Virus record (IMG/VR): IMGVR_UViG_3300022839_000007
Location: 93,789-157,788 of that record
DNA length: 64,000 bases
Strand: one strand, 5' to 3'
From: a virus
The notes beneath the pieces were generated by a model. The model was given only the letters and a program-made list of their open reading frames with translations. It was not told where the DNA came from and did no database searches. Numbering within the stretch: the first letter of the stretch is position 1; each line of letters opens with the position of its first letter. Shown here piece by piece: positions 6,148-57,134 of the stretch. A program made the translations under genes and the position numbers.

Positions 6148-6890
6148 GTAATTTTTTTAATTATTTTATTATAATCTACTGCTGCTTCAATCGTATTTAG
6201 GTTAATATTGTTATCTGCTGCCATTTTTAAAAGAGCAGCAGTGTCTTTAGGAAAGCACATTCCGTTCCATCCGCGCTGTTCTACATATGTATGGCTATGC
6301 CCAATCCGTACATCCTCGGCAATGCCAGCTCTAACTTGATCAAAATCAATACCAGTTGCTGCACACATATCGTATACGTGATTAAAGAAGCTAACTTTTG
6401 TAGCAAGAAATGCATTTCTAAAGTATTTGATCATAATTGCTTCCTCGGGCAATATAATATGCTGTTTTATATGAGGTGCCATTGTACGGTATTGGTCTGC
6501 CCAATAGTTACAATTTCCACTAAGTATAACAGTGTCGGTATTTTTGATATCATTCAGATAATTACCGGCACGTAAAAACTCTGGACTAAAGCATAACTCT
6601 TTTTGTGGAAATGTTTCTTTTAATATATTCCATCCGTCTAAGCTAATGGTGCTTTTGATTAATATTCTAGCGTGATCCGGTACTGCTTGTACAACCTCCA
6701 TAACATCACTAATATCGCAGGCACCGTCGATGCCTTGAGGAGTAGGAACACATACAATAAGTTGAGTAGTGTCCTGCCCAATGGTATTTTGATTATATTT
6801 TGGATCGACAATTTTAATCTGGTCACCCCATCCTTTAAAAAATATTTCGTATGCCTTGCCTACAAATCCGTATCCTGCAATAATCATCAT
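6144..6890 (-). CDS. UDP-glucose/GDP-mannose-type nucleotide-sugar 6-dehydrogenase
   Basis: About 248 residues from the ATG at 6890, which overlaps the stop of the upstream gene (ATGA). The N-terminus is an NAD-binding Rossmann motif, IIAGYGFVGKAY. Next come VCVPTPQG, the middle-domain FSPEFLRAGNYLND, the helix with KYFRNAFLATKVSFFN, and the catalytic-cysteine motif GMCFPKDTAAL. These are the signatures of enzymes that oxidise a sugar nucleotide to a uronate. It is shorter than cellular homologues (about 400 residues) because it ends soon after the catalytic Cys and lacks the C-terminal UDP-binding domain. It is the third gene of a coupled nucleotide-sugar cassette. Confidence 0.82.
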   Translation of the reverse strand: MMIIAGYGFVGKAYEIFFKGWGDQIKIVDPKYNQNTIGQDTTQLIVCVPTPQGIDGACDISDVMEVVQAVPDHARILIKSTISLDGWNILKETFPQKELCFSPEFLRAGNYLNDIKNTDTVILSGNCNYWADQYRTMAPHIKQHIILPEEAIMIKYFRNAFLATKVSFFNHVYDMCAATGIDFDQVRAGIAEDVRIGHSHTYVEQRGWNGMCFPKDTAALLKMAADNNINLNTIEAAVDYNKIIKKIT

Positions 6891-7597
6891 TGTGCTATTT
6901 TTTCCTCTTGTAAATATATAAGATGTTTGTATGTATCTCTCCAACTCTTTACTTGATAGGAGTTTTGTACTAGTATTGCCAGCGGCGCGTCGTTGCCGCC
7001 GGGCATTGTTTTGTCACCAAAGAAATAAATATTATCCACACTTGTATCAAAGTCCTTAATAATTTGACTTTTGTCATATCCAGTTGGGTATATATCTATG
7101 CCTGTGTCGCCACCAATAACAGCAGTAAGGTCCTTATAAGCCATGTTAAATTGTAAAGCAATACTTTCTCGTTCTTGTTGCTTAATATCCCATGCTATAT
7201 ACTCGTTACGTTGCGCGATTGTTGCTCCTCTTCCTATAATACTAAAGTTTACAGTGCCAGGACGTTCTTCGATGTGTGTACCTGTACGTATAGGAAACTT
7301 GCTAATTTCTAAACAATATTCTAAGGTTCTGCGACATTTATTTGGTAACGTCCAATTGTTTCTTTTTATATTTTTACCATGTTGCCACACATCATTTCCT
7401 GAGCAGTTGTATACTGTAGTTACATTGTTTACAATATAATCTCCAAGTTGGTCTATAGTTTTTTGATGGTCGCTTCCGGTAACAATATACACATCGTTGT
7501 CTGTGCAGAAACTATGAAAAAAATTCTTGAATACAGGATTAATTAGTTGTCTGCTAGGAGTAAGGGTTCCGTCTACATCAAATATAAACTTATTCAT
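6887..7597 (-). CDS. Eukaryotic-type (HAD) phosphomannomutase, copy 1
   Basis: About 236 residues from the ATG at 7597. The HAD nucleophile motif FDVDGTLTPSR is at the N-terminus, then VTGSD, NFSIIGRGA (like the NVSPIGR segment of eukaryotic PMM), GGDTGIDIYPTGYDKSQ and YFFGDKTMPGGND. This order is that of eukaryote-type phosphomannomutase, which interconverts mannose-6-P and mannose-1-P for GDP-mannose. It overlaps both neighbours (start inside the cytidylyltransferase end, stop within the ATGA of the dehydrogenase). A diverged second copy lies at 56415. Confidence 0.85.
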   Translation of the reverse strand: MNKFIFDVDGTLTPSRQLINPVFKNFFHSFCTDNDVYIVTGSDHQKTIDQLGDYIVNNVTTVYNCSGNDVWQHGKNIKRNNWTLPNKCRRTLEYCLEISKFPIRTGTHIEERPGTVNFSIIGRGATIAQRNEYIAWDIKQQERESIALQFNMAYKDLTAVIGGDTGIDIYPTGYDKSQIIKDFDTSVDNIYFFGDKTMPGGNDAPLAILVQNSYQVKSWRDTYKHLIYLQEEKIAQ

Positions 7598-8012
7598 TTT
7601 TTTCACATTTTGCAACTCGTCTGCGTAGGTCACTAGTACTAAATCTGTGATCACGCTTGTTAAAATGTAAGTCTATGCCTCGTTTGCGACAAATATCTTT
7701 GCCGCTAAACTCCTTCTCTCGATATTCCTCTCCAAGGAATCGAACATCAATTTGAAACAATTCTAATATGTCAACTAGATCCTGCTCTGTTTGATAAGGT
7801 ACTATTTCGTCAACAAACTTAAGAGCATTTAATTGTGCATATCTCTCTACTAATGTTTGCACAGGTTTATTTTTTTCTGTTGGGCGATCTATTGTAGGAT
7901 CAGTTTGTAATCCTACAATAAGATAATCGCAATTTGATCTTGCTTCACGCAACATCCCAATGTGTCCTGCATGAAGCAAATCAAATGAACTAAACGTAAT
8001 ACCTACTTTCAT
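7590..8012 (-). CDS. Cytidylyltransferase (glycerol-3-phosphate/sugar type, TagD-like)
   Basis: 140 residues from the ATG at 8012, six bases after the polymerase fragment's stop. The nucleotidyltransferase signature is clear: ITFSSFDLLHAGHIGML (HxGH) at the N-terminus and the ISSTxxR-like RFSTSDLRRRV at the C-terminus. Single-domain enzymes of this size join CTP to a phosphorylated polyol or sugar. It begins a coupled cassette with the phosphomannomutase and the dehydrogenase, so a surface-sugar or DNA-sugar precursor is likely. The exact substrate is not readable. Confidence 0.8.
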   Translation of the reverse strand: MKVGITFSSFDLLHAGHIGMLREARSNCDYLIVGLQTDPTIDRPTEKNKPVQTLVERYAQLNALKFVDEIVPYQTEQDLVDILELFQIDVRFLGEEYREKEFSGKDICRKRGIDLHFNKRDHRFSTSDLRRRVAKCEKNE

Positions 8013-8017
8013 ATTTA

Positions 8018-9094
8018 TTACCAACTAAACAAATTGCTAAATGTATTATGACGTTTAGTACTTTCTAAGTCGTAGTTTAGCACACCAATTAAGTTGTCTA
8101 ATTTATTATCAATAATTACTTCTTCCATTGCACTGTCGTCAAATGGCAATTCCTTAAACCATGCCGGCATACGCATTTCGTCAGTAGGATATGCAACGCT
8201 AGTAAATCCCAACGGATTAGCTTTAACTTTACAAACGATTACTTTCATTCCGTCGACAATTTCTTGAGAATAACGATCGCCGTTCATTCTTTTAAGTGTG
8301 TTCCAGTTAATGCTTGCTCTAACATGTCCTGGCATGTTTGCCTTGCCTTGTTTTTCTTCCAGTCGCTGATAGTGCAAAATATTGTTTGCACGTTTAGGAG
8401 ATCCCTTTTCGTATCCAGGCCGATCTTTAAATTCTTTACGAAATTCAGTGATTGCATCTAGAATATCACTCTCGTTGGCTTTTTGTAAAACCATCATCAA
8501 TAAAGTGCTAAGGAAAGTTTGCATAAACAAAGGAGTGTCCGATCTCTTGAGATCTAACCCCATAGCTTTAACTTTACCGGGTTTTCCGTCGACGTCTTTT
8601 CTATGTCCTTCAACATCAATAACCAGTGCAGCATATCGTTTTTTAGTAATGAACAACCCGGTTTCTGCAACAATTTCTCGTCCAGCTGCAATAACGTCGG
8701 ACCTAGACTTAGGGCAATGAAATGCTTGTGCCATAAATTTTTCAAACGTTGTATTTGCTTGATCAGCAACTTGATCATATAGTTTAATGGCGTTTTCTTT
8801 ATTCCACGGAACTTTTCCTGCTGCTACATCGTCTTTTATCATCGGCCATGCACTGAAATATACCGAGTTATGTATTAGGATGTTGTTAGCAAAGAACCAG
8901 GGCTGGTCGCTATTTTTCATTCCTATATCATATACATATTCGTCGTTGGCTTTTCGAACTTTAGTAACTCTTTTAACTTTGCTTCGAGATAGACTTAGTT
9001 TTTTAGATCCAACCTCATTGAGAAATTCCTTTACTGCAAAAGCAACTTCCTCTTTAGTTGTTGCTGATAATATCTTGATTAAGTTATCTTTCAT
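8018..9094 (-). CDS. 43: DNA polymerase gp43, C-terminal piece, starting with a C-intein
   Basis: A 358-residue product. Residues 1-76 are the C-terminal half of a split intein: the block F-like EYVYDIGMKN is followed by block G NNILIHN, with Ser77 as the +1 residue. From residue 77 it is a B-family polymerase just after motif C (SVYFSAWPMI), through KKRYAALVIDV and LKRSDTPLF (the KKRY and thumb region), to the C-terminal FSNLFSW, which resembles the clamp-binding tail of gp43. It cannot be a working polymerase alone. It should be joined by protein trans-splicing to the piece ending in YGDTDS at 9560. The start has only a weak ribosome site. Confidence 0.88.
   Translation of the reverse strand: MKDNLIKILSATTKEEVAFAVKEFLNEVGSKKLSLSRSKVKRVTKVRKANDEYVYDIGMKNSDQPWFFANNILIHNSVYFSAWPMIKDDVAAGKVPWNKENAIKLYDQVADQANTTFEKFMAQAFHCPKSRSDVIAAGREIVAETGLFITKKRYAALVIDVEGHRKDVDGKPGKVKAMGLDLKRSDTPLFMQTFLSTLLMMVLQKANESDILDAITEFRKEFKDRPGYEKGSPKRANNILHYQRLEEKQGKANMPGHVRASINWNTLKRMNGDRYSQEIVDGMKVIVCKVKANPLGFTSVAYPTDEMRMPAWFKELPFDDSAMEEVIIDNKLDNLIGVLNYDLESTKRHNTFSNLFSW
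8867..9094 (-). other. C-terminal half of a split intein (IntC)
   Basis: This codes for 76 residues ending in the canonical His-Asn (LIHN), followed by Ser as first extein residue. The FANNILIHN block and the preceding EYVYDIGM strand match intein blocks G and F. There is no endonuclease domain. Confidence 0.88.
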
Positions 9095-9128
9095 TCATTC
9101 TACCATTTTAATATCTGTTGTTCTACTA

Positions 9129-9158
9129 GGTTAGTATTTGCTGTGTAGTGGACTAACC
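9129..9158. other. Hairpin between the two split-intein genes
   Basis: A 7-bp inverted repeat (GGTTAGT/ACTAACC) with a 16-nt loop sits in the 109-nt gap that separates the intein halves. On the plus strand it is followed by CGCTTTTTT, on the minus strand by no T-run. It could be a remnant of a lost endonuclease insert or an RNA-stability element. The rest of the gap shows nothing else. Confidence 0.35.
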
Positions 9159-9203
9159 CGCTTTTTTGCCGTTACGTTTGATTGTTTAATAATAAAATTT
9201 AAA

Positions 9204-9560
9204 TCATACCTGATAAATGTTAAGTGTTATTATAATGTCGTCTTCATTAATTTCCAGAGGCTTAACTTCTATTAATTCGCCATTGCGTTCGATCATTACT
9301 GAATGATCTTCGGTTACGATAACTATATTGCCTTCTGAATCCTCGATTTCGTATAAGTCTTTGGAGACTTTGTGGCGATACACATAATTAATATGTCCCA
9401 TATATGGTTCGTCTCTTTCTTTATCGTATGACATTACCATTACATCGTCGTCGTGTGCGTATTCCTTATCTCCGTTGTTGGTTTTAATTTCCAGTCTATT
9501 GAATAAGCTTTCGATAGTCATATTTCCTATTGAGGTCTCGATTAGTGAATTTGCTTCACA
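9204..9560 (-). other. N-terminal half of a split intein (IntN) at polymerase motif C
   Basis: 118 residues starting with the nucleophile Cys directly after YGDTDS. Block A is CEANSLIETSIGN and block B contains TEDHSVMI. The insertion point, inside the polymerase active-site motif, is a known hot spot for inteins in B-family polymerases. The partner half is at 8867-9094. Confidence 0.88.
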
Positions 9561-10175
9561 AGAATCTGTATCTCCGTAGATTACAGCTTTTCCTACATGA
9601 TCGTATTCGCCTGTAATAATTTTATTAACTTCGGCACTCATATGCTTAACAATCTGCCTACCACTAAGAGTAGTACTCTGTCCAATTCTTTTATCAAAGA
9701 ATCTGCATCCTGGGTTTAAGATAGCACCATACACATTGATGTTCAGTTAGAATCGTTAATTCCAACCCGCCTTGCGGCTGCTGCATGTTACCATGCAGAT
9801 CAGACTATATCACCATCTGTGTTAACACAGATGTTCCCCGTTTCCACTCACTTGAGTGTACGTCTTTCGACTAGTCGTTGAACCTTCCTAACGCATTAGG
9901 CTTGGCTGCTGATTGTCCTTATTGGAGTTTCCAGCAATTAGAGGAATTATTCGACCATTGTTGCCAATGGAAGTCGCAGTACTTTACGAGTTTAGGTTAA
10001 TCTTCTTGACTAGTTGGCGTTTATCCCAAAACGTTATTTGATCTAGTATGTAGTCCTTGTCATTAGAAACGACCTTGTTATCCTTGATTTTTAAATTATG
10101 ATTATCAAGGTACAGCGCAATCTTTTTTGGATCAGCGTCGCTAATTAGTTGTTTAAGTTTTTTAATATCTATCAT
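9204..10175 (-). CDS. 43: DNA polymerase gp43, middle piece (motifs B and C) with N-intein; interrupted by a group I intron
   Basis: Two exons, 10175-9986 and 9733-9204, joined after intron removal. Exon 1 starts at an ATG behind AAAGGAG and reads to FWDKRQLVKKINLNS. Splicing restores Leu (T from exon 1 plus TG from exon 2) to give the polymerase motif B KKINLNSLYGA. Exon 2 continues through CRFFDKRIGQS to motif C YGDTDS. Cys59 of exon 2 (at 9560) then begins the N-intein, CEANSLIETSIGNMTIESLF, with a block-B-like TEDHSV, ending in a stop at 9204. The extein part is only about 121 residues, so the product works only after trans-splicing to the 9094-8018 product and pairing with the 12073-10235 product. 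Confidence 0.88.
9734..9985 (-). ncRNA. Group I self-splicing intron (252 nt, no ORF) in DNA polymerase motif B
   Basis: The minus-strand RNA has the group I core elements in order: P (AATTGCTGGAAACTCC), Q (AATCAGCAGCCAAGCC), R (GTTCAACGACTAG) and S (GATATAGTCTGA). The 5' exon ends ...CTCG-T, and the intron contains GCGA, which pairs with TCGT and leaves the required U.G wobble at the splice site (P1). The intron's last base is G (9734). Removing 9985-9734 fuses the frames and recreates NSLYGA, which fixes both splice sites. Several extra hairpins suggest subgroup IA. It carries no endonuclease gene. Confidence 0.93.
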
Positions 10176-10234
10176 TGGTATTCTCCTTTAAATATCTAAA
10201 AAGATACGGTTCATTTTTTCTCTCCGGAGATAGT

Positions 10235-12073
10235 TCATTTATCATTTATTGTATACTTTTTAATATCTTCAGCTAACGTAGGATCAATATTAATGCCAGA
10301 ATTAAGTTCTGTCCATAGCTCTAGCATACCCTGAAGCTCTTTACGCTCGCTGTACCATCTCTTAAGAAGTCCGGGAATTACTGCTTCAAATTCGTGTGTG
10401 AATATAGTTCCGTTCGCACTAAGCATCCACGGAGTATTACTATCAAAAATCATATTATAAATTTCAGCAGCACTAAGCACGTCTTGACGCCCGTCTTCCC
10501 AATTGACGTGTAATGCAATGTCTTTACGTTGTTCCATTACAGCTTCGTATTCTTCAGTAGCAAATCTTCCTTCCCAACTTGCAGCAAAACTCATTTTCTT
10601 AAGAGTTATATCGTCGTGTACTCGTGCTTCGCTAATATGTGGAACAATTTGTCCTATGATACTTTCTGGTGCCATATTCATGCTACGAATCACACTAGGA
10701 TACAATGAGTTAAGATCCATACTACCTATCCATTCGTGTAATCCCTTTTTAGGAACCGCGACATATGCACCAGCAGCTTGTGTACTATCGCCGTTATTTT
10801 TTCTATTAGGAACTTGCATACCTCTTCGATGTGCTTCGTTGATAATTGCTTGTTCAGTTAGTGCTACTGCACCTGCAGTAGTTTGTAGTAATACTGTATT
10901 TTCGTGAGCAAGGACGTTTGCTAAATCAATAAATTTTAGTTTTTTATCTAATTTATCTAGTAACGCAACGTCTTGTCTATTATATTCAATAAATTTTTCA
11001 AAATCATTATTGTATAACTGATCCAATGTACCTTCGTATATTGTTTTGTTCTCGCCTACTTCCATCTCTCCAATTGCATCAAGTCGATAGCTATGACGTT
11101 CCTCGTAAGTGTATTTGCGATATAAGTTAAGATAATCAAGATGTACTCTTCCGATAGTATCGTAGGTTATGCTAGTTTTTCCGTATTTTTCAAACTCGCG
11201 TTTTTTAGGCAATTGCCCCCATAAACAGAAGCGTCTAGTATCGTCATTGCTCAATACACGTTTGATACGATTAACAGTATAAGGAACGTCGTACCCTTCG
11301 GAATTCCATCCACTATGTACATCGGCATCTTCAATTAAGTCTAGAAACATCTGTAACATAGCACGTTCGCCATTACCTTCTGAATCGTTAGGAAACAATA
11401 TACATTCTTCGCCCCATCGTTCCTTACATATTGCTTGTGCTTTTTCAAACGGTAATCCTTTAGGAGGCATAGCAACTGTAACTAATAAATCTAACCATTG
11501 CAAGTATACAGTAATAGCAGTAATTGGCATAAATGGATCGTCAGTTGGTGCAAAGCCTCTGCCGGCTTTTAAGTAATCACACCCTGAAATTTGCTTCCAC
11601 TTTTTTTCTTTGTGGTTCCATACTTCGTATAGATGCGCATCGGTAATACGCGAAAGTGCATCGACATTTGTATCAATATCTATAACTGTTGACTTTTTTC
11701 TAATTTTTACCTTGTAATCCCTAGGGTACTCAAACGGATCAAAGTCAGTTTCGATATCCCAAAATGCTACATTAAGTTTAGGAGCATCCTGATTAAGATA
11801 GTGTTCGCTTAGGCATTGAAATATTGGATTTACATCAGACTCAAATAATACGTTGCCTTTGTTAATAGCAACTTCTTTTCTATAATCTTTTGTATTTTTA
11901 CACACAATACGGCTTAGAGTGTCTCCAAAAATACTCTTGTACTTTCCTCTAGCGTCTTTGTAATAAAATGTATATTTTGCTTGGTATTCTTGATAAATTC
12001 GTTTACCTTCCTTGCGTTCGACTATGTTAATAGTATCGCTGTCCCGGTTAAAGAAGCTGTCAATGTAGGGCAT
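10235..12073 (-). CDS. 43: DNA polymerase gp43, N-terminal piece (exonuclease and motif A)
   Basis: About 612 residues from the ATG at 12073, set by the AAGGAGAG ribosome site. It has the 3'-5' exonuclease motifs FWDIETD (Exo I), GWNSEGYDVPY (Exo II) and YNRQDVALLDK (Exo III), then polymerase motif A, MDLNSLYPSVIR. It stops after LAEDIKKYTINDK, between motifs A and B, and a new start with its own ribosome site follows 60 nt later. The break is therefore a true gene split, like the gp43A/gp43B split reported in some Aeromonas T4-like phages. The downstream 60-nt spacer shows no intein or intron sequence. Confidence 0.92.
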   Translation of the reverse strand: MPYIDSFFNRDSDTINIVERKEGKRIYQEYQAKYTFYYKDARGKYKSIFGDTLSRIVCKNTKDYRKEVAINKGNVLFESDVNPIFQCLSEHYLNQDAPKLNVAFWDIETDFDPFEYPRDYKVKIRKKSTVIDIDTNVDALSRITDAHLYEVWNHKEKKWKQISGCDYLKAGRGFAPTDDPFMPITAITVYLQWLDLLVTVAMPPKGLPFEKAQAICKERWGEECILFPNDSEGNGERAMLQMFLDLIEDADVHSGWNSEGYDVPYTVNRIKRVLSNDDTRRFCLWGQLPKKREFEKYGKTSITYDTIGRVHLDYLNLYRKYTYEERHSYRLDAIGEMEVGENKTIYEGTLDQLYNNDFEKFIEYNRQDVALLDKLDKKLKFIDLANVLAHENTVLLQTTAGAVALTEQAIINEAHRRGMQVPNRKNNGDSTQAAGAYVAVPKKGLHEWIGSMDLNSLYPSVIRSMNMAPESIIGQIVPHISEARVHDDITLKKMSFAASWEGRFATEEYEAVMEQRKDIALHVNWEDGRQDVLSAAEIYNMIFDSNTPWMLSANGTIFTHEFEAVIPGLLKRWYSERKELQGMLELWTELNSGINIDPTLAEDIKKYTINDK

Positions 12074-12114
12074 CGGGGTCTCTCCTTGCAACTTGTGGCT
12101 TGCTTACCGTGGTA

Positions 12115-52315: not shown

Positions 52316-53326
52316 TTATGCATTATCAACTGCCTTAATCCTTGCTTCTTGCAGCTTACTTTGAATTTTGTTTGCATCAGTTTCTCCATTTGGAAAAACA
52401 TCAATAAACTTAACACTACAGTATGCTTTAAATTTTTGCATCAATACCCAAAGGTGTTCAATACTATTATTTTCGGATCCTAATCTGCCTCTTTCGTCGC
52501 AGATACCAACACTGTATAGAATACTAACTGCTCGAGGATCATTTAACACTTGCATATCGTTAAACATTTTTACATATGTATTAGCTTTGATAGTGTCTAA
52601 CTTATGCATCAGCATATGATATCTAGTAGATTTCATTGAACGATCTCGAATTTTCGAAGGAACAGTTAGTCTGTTAGCAAATGATTCAACTAGTGCAACA
52701 CCATTTACATCGTGTCCGTAATGTTTTGGAAGACGATGAAATGGAGTTAACCCTTTACCAAAGTCATGTACAAGTACAGCAAACATAGCTTCAAGGTCCA
52801 TTTTAAATTCAGCAGCTTGTGTCAGGCAAAGCATTGTATGCTTGTATGCATTTCCTTCTGGGTGCCACCGATGAGATTCCAACGCGGTTAATAACTTATA
52901 GATTTCTGGAAACACCGCATAAAGTGCATCGCATTCCAACAGTGTATCAAAAAACAGCCGCGGAAATGGTTCCAGCAACGCCTGACTCATTTCTTTCCAA
53001 ATTCTTTCAGGAGTTAACTCATCTAGTCCGCCTGACTTTGCTATATTGTAAATCAAAACTTTTGTTTCAGCAGCCACAGTCCATTCAGGACCAAGCCTTG
53101 CACGAAATCTTGCAATCCTTAGTACACGAACTGGATCTTCACTAAATGCATCACTGGTATGACGCAGAATCTTTGCTTGAATATCGGCTCTACCATTATA
53201 AGGATCAATATATTGACGAATACCATCAGGCGAGTTTGGTATATCGCTTTCCATGGCAATGGAGTTTATAGTGAGATCACGACGTGAGGCGTCTGTAACT
53301 AAATCTATAAAATGTGCAAGTTTCAT
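52316..53326 (-). CDS. cca: CCA-adding tRNA nucleotidyltransferase, C-terminal piece with HD domain
   Basis: 336 residues equal to the second two-thirds of a bacterial Cca. It starts with motif B ([11 protein letters not shown]) at about residue 15, then [11 protein letters not shown], the nucleotide-choosing motif D ([17 protein letters not shown]), [14 protein letters not shown], and an HD phosphohydrolase domain ([27 protein letters not shown] region). The catalytic carboxylates are on the other gene. Its ATG overlaps the stop of that gene (ATGA at 53326-53323), so both halves should be made together and form one enzyme. Confidence 0.88.
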
Positions 53327-53715
53327 GTATTTTCTCTCTTGTTTATATTGCGAAAGAATTCAATAAGTGTTTCGGTGTTATATTCTGTTTTTAAATCAAA
53401 CCCAGCATCGATGAACTTTTGTAATAGTTCAGGGTTTATAGTTTTTACATTCTCACCGTTTTCTAACGTTACATCGATATCAAATTCACTAGTAAAGCCA
53501 TGATATCCAACTCCGGTTTTTTTATCGCGACGAGCTAATGCATACTGGTTGCCAGTTGACGGTTGTAGATATACTGGGAAATCTGCACCAACTTTAGAAA
53601 AGCCATTCGCAATCATTTGTTCGGGAGTAGATCCTACTACAACAAAATCTATATCTTTAGGACTAATACCCATCAACATATCTCTAACTGCGCCACCTAC
53701 TAAGTATACATTCAT
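53323..53715 (-). CDS. cca: CCA-adding tRNA nucleotidyltransferase, N-terminal catalytic piece
   Basis: 130 residues from the ATG at 53715 (AAGGAGAG ribosome site). It holds the pol-beta-type active site: [11 protein letters not shown] and DIDFVVVG with Asp21 and Asp23 as metal ligands, then [20 protein letters not shown] and FDIDVTLE. In one-piece Cca the RRDLTIN motif follows at once. Here about 45 unrelated residues (86-130) and 14 residues of the next gene replace the short linker. It is inactive alone by expectation; the pair would restore the 3' CCA of tRNAs. Confidence 0.88.
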
Positions 53716-53737
53716 TATAACTCTCCTTGTTGATATC

Positions 53738-53766
53738 ATAGTATACTAGTATTGTTGTAGAGTCAA
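53738..53766 (-). promoter_or_regulatory. Sigma-70-type promoter of the cca pair
   Basis: Minus-strand TTGACT (53766-53761), 17-nt spacer and TACTAT (53743-53738). The -35 box lies inside the last hairpin of the upstream structured region. Confidence 0.5.
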
Positions 53767-54254
53767 GTCAGAATTTTCCTTAACTCTACAGTGATAATAT
53801 TATACTTTTGTAATTAGTGATTAACTACGTTAATCAGTTAAGTATCTCATTTCGACGTTGTCTCATTCGAATACTTAACCTTTCTTCTTCTATGAATTTT
53901 TTAGAGATTCTATCTAGATTTGGACTCACACTTAGCCCTGTTACAGGCTAAGAGAAAAAGAAACTCTATCTGAGTTCGTTAACACTCTCATATCCAAAAA
54001 CCTATAACGTCAGGTGAAGGGCGGTTACGCGGTACCCTTTTATTTTGTGCTTTAACAACGCGAAACACAAGCCAGGGATATGAGCACCCGGCTTGCAATC
54101 TGTAAGTTCCAATTGTGAGGAGAGCTTACTCATTCTCTCTTGTTAGGAGAAACGATTACAACATACAAAATAGAGTCTAGCTCTATTAGGAAACACTACC
54201 AGATCTGTTCGTTAGACTGCTCTAACTAACTCAAGGTACTGCAATGTGCAGACC
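53756..54254 (-). ncRNA. Large structured non-coding region, candidate novel ncRNA
   Basis: About 570 nt without a gene, holding a chain of hairpins. Minus-strand examples: GGT-CTGCA/TGCAG-ACC (54254-54235), GTTAGA/TCTAAC (54226-54211), AATAGAG/CTCTATT (54187-54169), GCAAGCC-GGG/CCC-GGCTTGT (54096-54067), AACTC/GAGTT (53976-53962), TTAGCCTG/CAGGGCTAA (53951-53932), GTTAAGTAT/ATACTTAAC (53879-53837), TGATTAAC/GTTAATCA (53836-53818) and a 12-bp stem at 53790-53756. Several stems pair fully only on the minus strand because they use G.U pairs, which gives the likely sense. I find no tRNA, tmRNA or group I core. It lies between an accessory gene and the cca pair. Big ornate phage RNAs (GOLLD, ROOL) are possible relatives; unproven. 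Confidence 0.55.
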
Positions 54255-54308
54255 GGTGTTTAATATATAGCCTAAATATGCCTGTATGTTGCCTAAGATT
54301 TTCTAGAT

Positions 54309-54647
54309 TTATTTACTATTATTGCGGTAAACTACGCCTGTTTTAATAATTTGTACAGTGGTCTTTACTTCAACTTCTTCACCAAGAACATAATATTTGT
54401 ATGCATCTGTACGTAGATTACTGTTAAATGACTTTGCTAGTGCTTCGTCGCCTTTAACTAAGAAAATGTTATCACTGGGATGAGATTTATGGATACATAC
54501 ATAAGTTTTAGTATCTTTTAAATTTGCAGTCCGCAGAGTGGATGATGTAGTATCTGCTGTTTTATTGTTTTTGTTGCAGGTTAATTCTTGGCATGTACTA
54601 TAATCCTGCATTTCTTTCCCACAAGAACACCCTCTATCATGACTCAT
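54309..54647 (-). CDS. Hypothetical protein with N-terminal Cys cluster
   Basis: 112 residues. The first 25 residues hold four cysteines (RGCSCGKEMQDYSTCQELTC), perhaps a zinc site; the rest is a strand-rich domain (KTYVCIHKSHPSDNIFLVKG). The ATG overlaps the upstream stop. Function unknown. Confidence 0.6.
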   Translation of the reverse strand: MSHDRGCSCGKEMQDYSTCQELTCNKNNKTADTTSSTLRTANLKDTKTYVCIHKSHPSDNIFLVKGDEALAKSFNSNLRTDAYKYYVLGEEVEVKTTVQIIKTGVVYRNNSK

Positions 54648-55597: not shown

Positions 55598-56347
55598 TTA
55601 TGGCGAAACCTTTGGGTTCTTGGCAGGGCTTACCTGAATAATTTGTAGGATGAGGTTTAGGTGCTTCTCAGCCCATGATAAAGCGTCGTTATCCATCTTA
55701 GAAACCCAAAGACGACCTGCCTCAGTGTCCCAACGGGACCACTTTTCAATGGCGTGTGTTTGGCAACCTACCTGTAGTGTGTCATATGTGTATCCTACTT
55801 GCCACTTATCAATCTGCATAGTCTTTAGGTAAGCCATATCCCCATAAGTTCGTAGATCGGCACCCTCAAGATCGGCACCAATAAGATCAGCACCCGCAAG
55901 ATTTGCACCCTTAAGATTTGCACCCGCAAGATAGGCACCCACAAGCTTGGAGCCCATGAGATTGACACCCTCAAGATCAGCACCCTCGAGATTGACACCC
56001 TCAAGATAGGCACCCTCAAGATTGGCACCCATAAGCTTGGAACCCATAAGATTGGCACCAATAAGATCAGCACCCTCAAGATTTGCACCCTCAAGATTTG
56101 CACCCGCAAGATTGGCACCCACAAGCTTGGCACCCACAAGCTTGGAGCCCATAAGATTGGCACCCTCAAGATCAGTACCCTCAAGATTTGCACCCGCAAG
56201 ATTGGCACCCACAAGCTTGGCACCCACAAGCTTGGCACCCACAAGCTTGGAGCCCACAAGCTTGGCACCCTCAAGATCAGTACCCCTAAGATTTGCACCA
56301 CTAAGATTGGCGTTTGGGCCGATTGTGTAACCATTAACAGTAATCAT
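55598..56347 (-). CDS. Pentapeptide-repeat protein
   Basis: 249 residues. About 32 tandem A(N/D/K)L.G units (residues 12-170) build a right-handed quadrilateral beta helix; examples are ANLSGANLRGTDLEGAKLVG. The C-terminal 75 residues are a different domain (DTLQVGCQTHAIEKW, WAEKHLNLILQII). Pentapeptide proteins such as MfpA and Qnr mimic DNA and bind gyrase, but many others have no known target. At DNA level the gene is a tandem 15-nt repeat, so it can recombine in length. Confidence 0.93.
   Translation of the reverse strand: MITVNGYTIGPNANLSGANLRGTDLEGAKLVGSKLVGAKLVGAKLVGANLAGANLEGTDLEGANLMGSKLVGAKLVGANLAGANLEGANLEGADLIGANLMGSKLMGANLEGAYLEGVNLEGADLEGVNLMGSKLVGAYLAGANLKGANLAGADLIGADLEGADLRTYGDMAYLKTMQIDKWQVGYTYDTLQVGCQTHAIEKWSRWDTEAGRLWVSKMDNDALSWAEKHLNLILQIIQVSPAKNPKVSP
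55850..56315 (-). repeat. Tandem 15-nt repeats within the pentapeptide gene
   Basis: Repeats of the form GCACCC(T/A)CAAGATTG (plus strand) with near-identical copies, e.g. three successive copies of a CACAAGCTTGGCACC unit around 56205-56245. Near-identity of neighbouring units implies recent duplication rather than old selection on protein alone. Confidence 0.85.
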
Positions 56348-56414: not shown

Positions 56415-57134
56415 TCATTTTGCTAAATTCTCTTTTTGTAGATGAATTAACTGTTTCCAAGTATCACGCCAATCAACAACCTGATAACTTTTTTTTATTA
56501 TTTTTGCAAGTGGTTCATCATTTCCACCCTGTTCCATCTTGTCACCAAAAAAATAAAGATTGTCATACTTCATATCAAAGTCTACGATTATTTGACCTTT
56601 ATCCCAACCAGTAGGATGAATATCAATACCAGTATCACCACCTACTGTAGCTGTTATAAACTCAAATTTTTCGTTGATGACGGCAGCAATGTTTTCACGT
56701 TCTTTATGGGCAGTATCCCATTTAACGTAAATTTCTCTTTCAGATATAGAAGCACCGCGACCAACAATACTAAAATTAATCATGCCAGTTCTTTGTTCTA
56801 TATGGTCCTCTTGCCTAATAGGAAATTTACTTTCGGCAAGCCAATAATTCAAAGTATGAAAAAGTTCTTTGGGAGCTTTCCATATTTTTTCGCGTACCAA
56901 TAACTCATTGGATCTTACTTCGTTTCCTGCACAATTATATACATAAATTGGCAAACGTAGCAAGTATTCACCTAATTGCTCTTGTGTTTTTGTATGATCG
57001 CTACCAGTCACAATATAGACTTTGTTATCGATGCAAAATTTCACAAAAAAATCTTTAAAATTATCATCTATAGATTTGCGGCTTGGTGTTAGTGTCCCAT
57101 CTACGTCAAAAATAAACTTATTCGTTTTGACCAT
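56415..57134 (-). CDS. Eukaryotic-type (HAD) phosphomannomutase, copy 2
   Basis: 239 residues, a paralogue of the 6887 product: FDVDGTLTPSR, VTGSDHTKTQEQLGEY, INFSIVGRGASISER, GGDTGIDIHPTGWDKGQ and YFFGDKMEQGGND. It keeps the HAD nucleophile Asp and metal-site motif. The two copies differ throughout and in the GDKTMPGGND loop (MEQGGND here), so the duplication is old or the copies came separately. This one stands alone, away from sugar genes, in the accessory region. Confidence 0.85.
   Translation of the reverse strand: MVKTNKFIFDVDGTLTPSRKSIDDNFKDFFVKFCIDNKVYIVTGSDHTKTQEQLGEYLLRLPIYVYNCAGNEVRSNELLVREKIWKAPKELFHTLNYWLAESKFPIRQEDHIEQRTGMINFSIVGRGASISEREIYVKWDTAHKERENIAAVINEKFEFITATVGGDTGIDIHPTGWDKGQIIVDFDMKYDNLYFFGDKMEQGGNDEPLAKIIKKSYQVVDWRDTWKQLIHLQKENLAK

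Follow-up and report, generated by a model that had tools for sequence, protein, structure and literature searches.

A putative structured noncoding RNA family of T4-like and jumbo phages carrying two identical 7-nt boxes

The window, meaning the whole stretch of DNA analysed here, makes up the final 64 kb of an IMG/VR virus record of 157,788 bp. Inspection of positions 53740-54308 showed no plausible gene, the longest ORFs there reaching 43-44 aa, and this gene-free gap of about 570 nt is flanked by an unassigned small gene (54309-54647, minus strand) and, at 53323-53739 on the same strand, by the opening half of a CCA-enzyme gene that is split. The CCA enzyme (tRNA nucleotidyltransferase; 52316-53739, minus strand) is the downstream neighbour, and its two ORFs (53323-53739 and 52316-53326) matched Pfam PF01743/PF12627/PF01966 and PHROG 2244. 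A first-pass annotation had described the gap as a candidate novel phage ncRNA next to the CCA enzyme, with about eleven stem-loops and without tRNA or tmRNA features. ARAGORN and Rfam likewise found no tRNA or tmRNA in the region, the tmRNA and RNase P RNA models were unmatched there, and the whole of Rfam gave zero matches for the window copy at the gathering thresholds and at E<=10. No clear promoter or terminator was found at the window RNA, and the T4-type late promoter TATAAATA was not enriched in the window.

Folding of the region as one RNA gave -154.1 kcal/mol on the minus strand (z=-4.66), with none of 100 dinucleotide shuffles as good, and the plus strand of the same gene-free region gave z=-3.30 against dinucleotide shuffles. 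The fold z-score alone was regarded as modest to weak evidence for the window RNA, because 200-nt windows taken from the region had thermodynamic z-scores that were unexceptional against the rest of the window and did not discriminate. The decisive evidence for the proposed RNA is comparative, namely that homologous sequences exist and that the proposed helices covary among them. Judged on these comparisons, the minus strand at 53757-54290 encodes a predicted structured noncoding RNA of roughly 500 nt with approximate limits, its putative 5' end lying near 54275-54290 and its putative 3' end near 53757. The RNA probably reaches slightly past the end given in the first-pass annotation (54254), to about 54275-54290, and conserved sequence in common with one relative (L010) extends up to about 54275.

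Relatives were reached through the protein neighbour. The phage contig L003 carries a CCA protein 60% identical to that of the window, and its upstream gap contains a 49-nt stretch that is 82% identical to the window in the same orientation. The core GGTACnGCGTnACCGCC, common to the window and L003, led to L010 in a 382-kb phage contig, and a looser core pattern added at least 60 more true relatives among viral contigs. Thirty-eight of these were used to train a covariance model (R1), with the window, L003 and L010 excluded, and it matched the window at 54135-53969 on the minus strand (E=1.2e-18) and the held-out L010 (E=6e-22) and L003 (E=9e-14), the E-values of this and the second custom model (R2) being rough throughout. 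Across the 158-kb record, R1 found nothing beyond the window copy (E<=10, default filters), and in all it matched 99 loci at E<=0.01. The window copy belongs to the type I core of the RNA family by its R1 match and by forming P1, P2, P4 and the pseudoknots PK1 and PK2. With no gene and with covarying homologues, the gap is a noncoding multi-hairpin region as first proposed. The family was present in at least 200 IMG/VR contigs (lower bounds, as are all contig counts here, with near-duplicates included), in two types, in T4-like and jumbo phages of lakes and seas. The hosts of the window's phage group are likely to be proteobacteria of fresh or marine waters.

Queried by blastn with RNAs of both types, 50,697 phage records returned only short chance matches, as did plasmids queried with type II RNAs. 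The type I core pattern selected 8 stretches in cellular contigs (best 20 bits), whose scores are those expected from the core used to select them, and no convincing cellular homologue was found. At the sensitivity of the searches used, the RNA was absent from cultured phages, and the cultured jumbo gp46 relatives (PA5oct, Atu_ph07, Phosso, XbC2 and an Asterius-like phage) gave no significant covariance-model match. In several cultured jumbo relatives, several hundred nt near the equivalent place are free of genes; in L193, L196 and L198 (Phosso, XbC2 and the Asterius-like phage) this gap spans 770-1000 nt near gp46/gp26 and adjoins a Holliday-junction or endonuclease VII gene, with no significant R1 or R2 match. 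These three gaps may hold a further diverged relative of the RNA.

Read along the minus strand, on which all of the following features lie, the predicted RNA begins with a 5' domain element (ACCUUGAG...AGAUCUGGU, 54197-54237) identified in the alignment of groups B and C and common to L010 and the group B relatives. The P1 hairpin (54102-54129) pairs GUAAG (54125-54129) with CUUAC (54102-54106) and has an inner stem P1b (UCC/GGA); among 77 distinct sequences its cells were paired in 100%, 4 of 5 pairs had double changes, and the variants were GUAGG/CCUAC, GUAAG/CUUAC, GUGAG/CUCAC and UCAAG/CUUGA. P2 (54068-54095) pairs CAAGCC (54090-54095) with GGCUUG (54068-54073), with 99.6% of cells paired and double changes in all three tested pairs, each with 4-5 pair types. 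The P2 loop holds the 5' strand of PK1 (CUCAUAUCC, 54076-54084), whose partner (GGAUAUGAG, 53987-53995) follows P5. PK1 formed 7-15 contiguous bp in 48 of 48 representatives (9 bp in the window copy), and its mean length was 8.98 bp against 6.46 +/- 0.20 with partners swapped (maximum 7.10 of 200). PK2 joins GUUG at 54056-54059 (GUYA/GUUG in the family) to a URAC sequence in the P4 loop, UAAC at 54024-54027 in the window, and a U-A to C-G double change was present in 21 of the 77 sequences.

P3 (53995-54047; CAAAA at 54043-54047 with UUUUG at 53995-54000) encloses P4 and P5, and had 77.6% of cells paired and double changes in four of four pairs. P4 (54017-54039) contains the near-invariant core AAGGGUACCGCGUAACCGCCCUU, which was invariant in the 38-sequence alignment; 93% of its cells were paired, with double changes present, and the core loop UACnGCGURACCG was almost invariant across the family. 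The P5 hairpin (ACCUGACGUUAUAGGU, 54000-54015) is conserved in place, varies in length between groups and is more weakly supported than P1-P4. Further along lies the P6 hairpin (53931-53952), CUUAGCC/GGCUAAG followed by UGUGA, which is conserved in the type I alignment, and the stretch 53757-53876 is predicted to fold into 3' hairpins (53840-53876, 53819-53835 and 53757-53789) that are not alignable across groups. The 5' and 3' domains aligned less well than the core.

Covariation was counted on the alignment of R1 matches (77 distinct sequences, 31 pairs, seven helices). Paired cells made up 90.6%, compared with 69.2 +/- 0.6 after column shuffling and at most 46.4 when the pairing was slid; double-sided changes numbered 526 against 172 +/- 10 in shuffled alignments, and the covariation score, 0.56, fell to 0.12 or less under sliding. 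Because the model had partly shaped the alignment, these pair counts lean its way, but the ranking of column pairs and the PK1 permutation are free of that bias. The unsupervised ranking of all column pairs (APC-corrected G statistic) placed its top four in P1 and P4, with P2, PK1 and PK2 also high. The predicted fold is thus taken as proven by covariation among homologues, which the first-pass annotation had put forward as a check. Support extends to P1, P1b, P2, P3, P4, both pseudoknots and one conserved hairpin on the 3' side; not all of the roughly eleven stem-loops first described are conserved. Paired columns read on the RNA strand contained 66 G.U and 9 C.A cells across the 77 distinct homologues, and therefore the functional, transcribed strand is the minus strand of the window, as had been argued earlier from G.U pairs in the window alone.

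The genomic setting of most relatives differed from that of the window. Most type I copies are preceded by gp46 and a nuclease gene, of the SegE-type GIY-YIG or the PD-(D/E)XK kind, and followed by the baseplate gene gp26, and at this canonical locus the next large downstream gene is often convergent. The RNA precedes the CCA gene in the window and in L003, and the L010 copy lies near TilS- and ClpP-like genes. Two to four copies were found in several genomes at unrelated places; the phage of L003 has four, one of them at the canonical locus, and the phage of L087 has two. In the window's phage, gp46 occupies G000:C1:22034-23800, gp26 lies at about 18.7-19.6 kb, and in the gap beside SegE R1 weakly matched a sequence of the same architecture (E=0.023).

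Were the RNA a cis-acting leader or riboswitch serving the downstream CCA-enzyme gene, this would account for its position upstream of that gene on the same strand in both the window and L003, and the one catalogued relative, RF01718, was listed as possibly cis-regulatory (PMC2864571). This role is refuted as a general one and is extremely improbable. Since downstream genes are convergent in many relatives, the type I RNA is not the leader of a particular gene; most copies sit at gp46/SegE-gp26 and the L010 copy has other neighbours; L002, whose CCA gene is the closest by identity, has no such leader and no room for it upstream; and in L003 a 90-aa ORF separates the RNA from the CCA gene. The usual home being between gp46/SegE and gp26, the CCA enzyme was judged not to be part of the RNA system and its adjacency to be incidental, and the meaning that the first-pass annotation implied for this neighbour was set aside.

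The multicopy state in some phages and the frequent adjoining of a GIY-YIG (SegE) or PD-(D/E)XK nuclease gene could also point to a mobile ribozyme, such as a self-splicing intron of group I or II that has decayed or is unusual, and a true group I intron does occur elsewhere in the window (9781-9995). The group I intron model RF00028 found no match in the gene-free region at E<=10, though it finds 9781-9995, and the Rfam intron models as a whole were unmatched by the window copy at that threshold. The region is intergenic, as are the other copies, with uninterrupted ORFs where examined and no split-gene joins at the RNA, and the adjoining nuclease gene is of varying kind and is missing from non-canonical loci. 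An intron origin is therefore very improbable, and the decayed group I intron named in the first-pass annotation as a possible refutation was not found.

Direct repeats and hairpins at a gene-free site, with the recombination gene gp46 adjoining at the canonical locus, might instead belong to a DNA element, such as a replication origin, a packaging site or a recombination site, in which they act as DNA. We consider this quite improbable, given the 66:9 excess of G.U over C.A cells, the two pseudoknots whose compensatory changes fit a folded RNA strand, and the scattered multiple copies in some phages.

The second copy in the window's phage, through its core CCGGUCAACCG, defines type II of the family, and the type II pattern TACCGGTCAACCGCCTC was present in at least 120 viral contigs. 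SegE or gp46 occurred in the stretch examined for 73 of the 84 parsed type II loci, among the matches listed. The model R2, built from 28 type II loci with none from the window's phage, found this second copy at G000:C1:20897-21038 (minus strand; E=1.0e-18), outside the window; it occupies the canonical gp46-SegE-gp26 locus and is also represented by L217:2560-3171 (minus strand). R2 also matched type I canonical loci (E=6.5e-5, 0.007 and 0.03) and gave a weak match to the window copy (E=0.08), which is what a family with two branches should show. A third, longer form was found at the canonical locus in L033 (R2 E=8.9e-12). The gap of L033 (10238-11278) is about 1 kb long and contains the diverged RNA, whose hairpin is flanked by 10-nt direct repeats that are near-identical (AGCGAAAGAU/AGCGAAGGAU).

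Two 7-nt boxes flank P6 in the window copy, X1 (53965-53971) and X2 (53909-53915), both reading AGAUAGA on the minus strand, and their concordance is family-wide. Each RNA carries one word: AGAUAGA in the window, GAAUGAU in the type II copy of the same phage, AGAAAAAG in L010, and GUGUCAAGU, GGUGAAG, UGCCAAG and others elsewhere. X1 equalled X2 over exactly 7 nt in 84 of 84 parsed type II RNAs, with eight different 7-mers among the matches listed. The boxes were parsed by short anchors beside them, a few of 94 candidates being omitted, and anchors that lie outside the boxes cannot create identity inside them. On a parsimony tree built without the box columns, which accounts for relatedness among type II RNAs, the word changed at least 22 times with no mismatched intermediate, and the counts of changes were equal in both copies at every position. 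The base to the left of the box differed between X1 and X2 in all 84 type II RNAs, so the identity ends exactly at the box on that side. In type I, box concordance was 6.15 against 3.64 +/- 0.15 when permuted, a permutation that leaves relatedness in.

Even in a real RNA, the boxes could be kept identical at the DNA level and not by function, either through gene conversion or through target-site duplications recurring at the P6 segment, and the exact 7-nt limits with a differing left outside base in 84 of 84 do resemble a target-site duplication. Drifting duplications would not be expected to pass through at least 22 word changes without a mismatched intermediate, nor to keep a constant place, a constant X1-X2 spacing (49-64 nt in type II) and a vocabulary limited, in type II, to words such as AGAUGAU and GGAUAAU, and this origin of the identity is considered unlikely. 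Two short identical boxes that change together hint at recognition of something specific. Partners were sought both inside and outside the RNA. No other alignment column tracked the two fast-changing box positions in type II (normalised MI at most 0.43 vs 1.00), type I RNAs contained no consistent complement and only clade-level matches, and within 4 kb neither the box nor its complement was enriched and no trans partner was found.

Within a single genome, paralogues tend to differ in word, as with AGAUAGA and GAAUGAU in the window's phage; the phage of L087 has GACA and ACGAAAU, and that of L003 has CGGAAAU twice and AGGUAAU. As a separate observation, in the 22 type I RNAs of subgroup A2 the variable box base (A/G) tracked a P1 pair (A-U/G-C) perfectly, which is possibly inherited. 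A correlation between box and P1 base pair was considered as a general rule and dropped, as it fails outside this subgroup.

Comparison with catalogued RNAs showed that part of the family had been recorded before. Six of the 12 type I loci tested matched RF01718 at 77-98 bits, reaching its gathering score, immediately upstream of P1, and RF01718 is therefore the 5' domain that one branch of this family carries. The RF01718 (Polynucleobacter-1) model has 141 nt and ends before P1, and the core, the pseudoknots, the X boxes and the phage location of the RNA described here are absent from it. Weinberg et al. (2010, PMC2864571) entered the motif under Burkholderiales, fresh water and estuary. It had no match in the window copy (E<=10), L010, three group B loci or the type II loci scanned, and a search of openly accessible journal literature found no paper placing it inside a longer phage RNA. 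The earlier description as a candidate novel phage ncRNA agrees with a conserved, covarying, minus-strand, noncoding and phage-borne element; the novelty stands for the window copy, which, like all type II copies tested, is unmatched in Rfam, and not for the 5' domain of that one branch.

The GOLLD and ROOL models, also among the checks named in the first-pass annotation, found no match in the window or at the tested loci of either type. GOLLD resembles the new RNA as a large pseudoknotted phage RNA of unknown function with a conserved 3' and a variable 5' part that is found in aquatic metagenomes, and differs in being often >800 nt and often near tRNA islands (PMC12286853). ROOL is likewise phage-borne, about 600 nt long and without a known protein partner, with several pseudoknots (PMC12286853); the new RNA differs in its unmatched ROOL model and in not being seen near tRNA genes, which are common for GOLLD and ROOL, though not strictly required, and were absent from the window and the loci scanned. 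GOLLD and ROOL would offer the best behavioural analogy, by which homo-oligomerisation into an RNA cage might be supposed, and membership in either family is unsupported by their models.

On balance, this large structured RNA, encoded by T4-like and jumbo phages, probably stands alone and acts in trans, its boxes being one recognition word given twice. Its architecture consists of a pseudoknotted core (P1-P5, PK1 and PK2) and a 3' arm in which P6 lies between the identical 7-nt boxes. It would be transcribed and stable, and during infection would serve in trans as a scaffold, either as RNA or as RNP, like GOLLD and ROOL. Both boxes would present the same word to one external partner, be it a nucleic acid, a sibling RNA copy or a protein; the specificity for this partner would change quickly, and the differing words of paralogues in one phage would keep partners apart. 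A bolder form of this interpretation, put forward tentatively, is that of a phage recognition RNA with a reprogrammable double word, which might read a variable external nucleic acid, a sibling RNA or a protein via duplicated identical sites. To our knowledge, recognition through duplicated identical sites has been described for no RNA family.

With at least 200 contigs, the RNA looks to be among the commoner structured RNAs of aquatic T4-like and jumbo phages, and it is nearly absent from RNA databases, which record no more of it than a 141-nt domain from one branch, classed among bacterial motifs without an assigned role. The family offers a deep alignment, a fold for which covariation is the proof, a known genomic address and identical boxes whose joint variation is testable. 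It would extend the puzzle of why phages make large stable RNAs, as posed by GOLLD and ROOL, to a further, unrelated family.

Other features of the window were recorded alongside. The CCA enzyme is split at one place, before the RRDLTINSI motif, in the window (52316-53739, minus strand) and in L003 (4587-6026), with an extra conserved segment at the break, and the L002 gene is intact; the split enzyme could be a functional two-part enzyme or the scar of an inserted element. The DNA polymerase gene (8018-12091, minus strand) is in three ORFs, with the group I intron (RF00028, 9781-9995, 95 bits) between ORFs 1 and 2, and the ends of ORF 2 and ORF 3 resemble split-intein halves inserted at YGDTDS. 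Paralogous HAD/phosphomannomutase-like genes are located at 6887-7654 and 56415-57134 (minus strand), the latter matching Pfam PF03332, and a pentapeptide-repeat-like protein with A(N/D)LxG repeats is encoded at 55598-56347 (minus strand).
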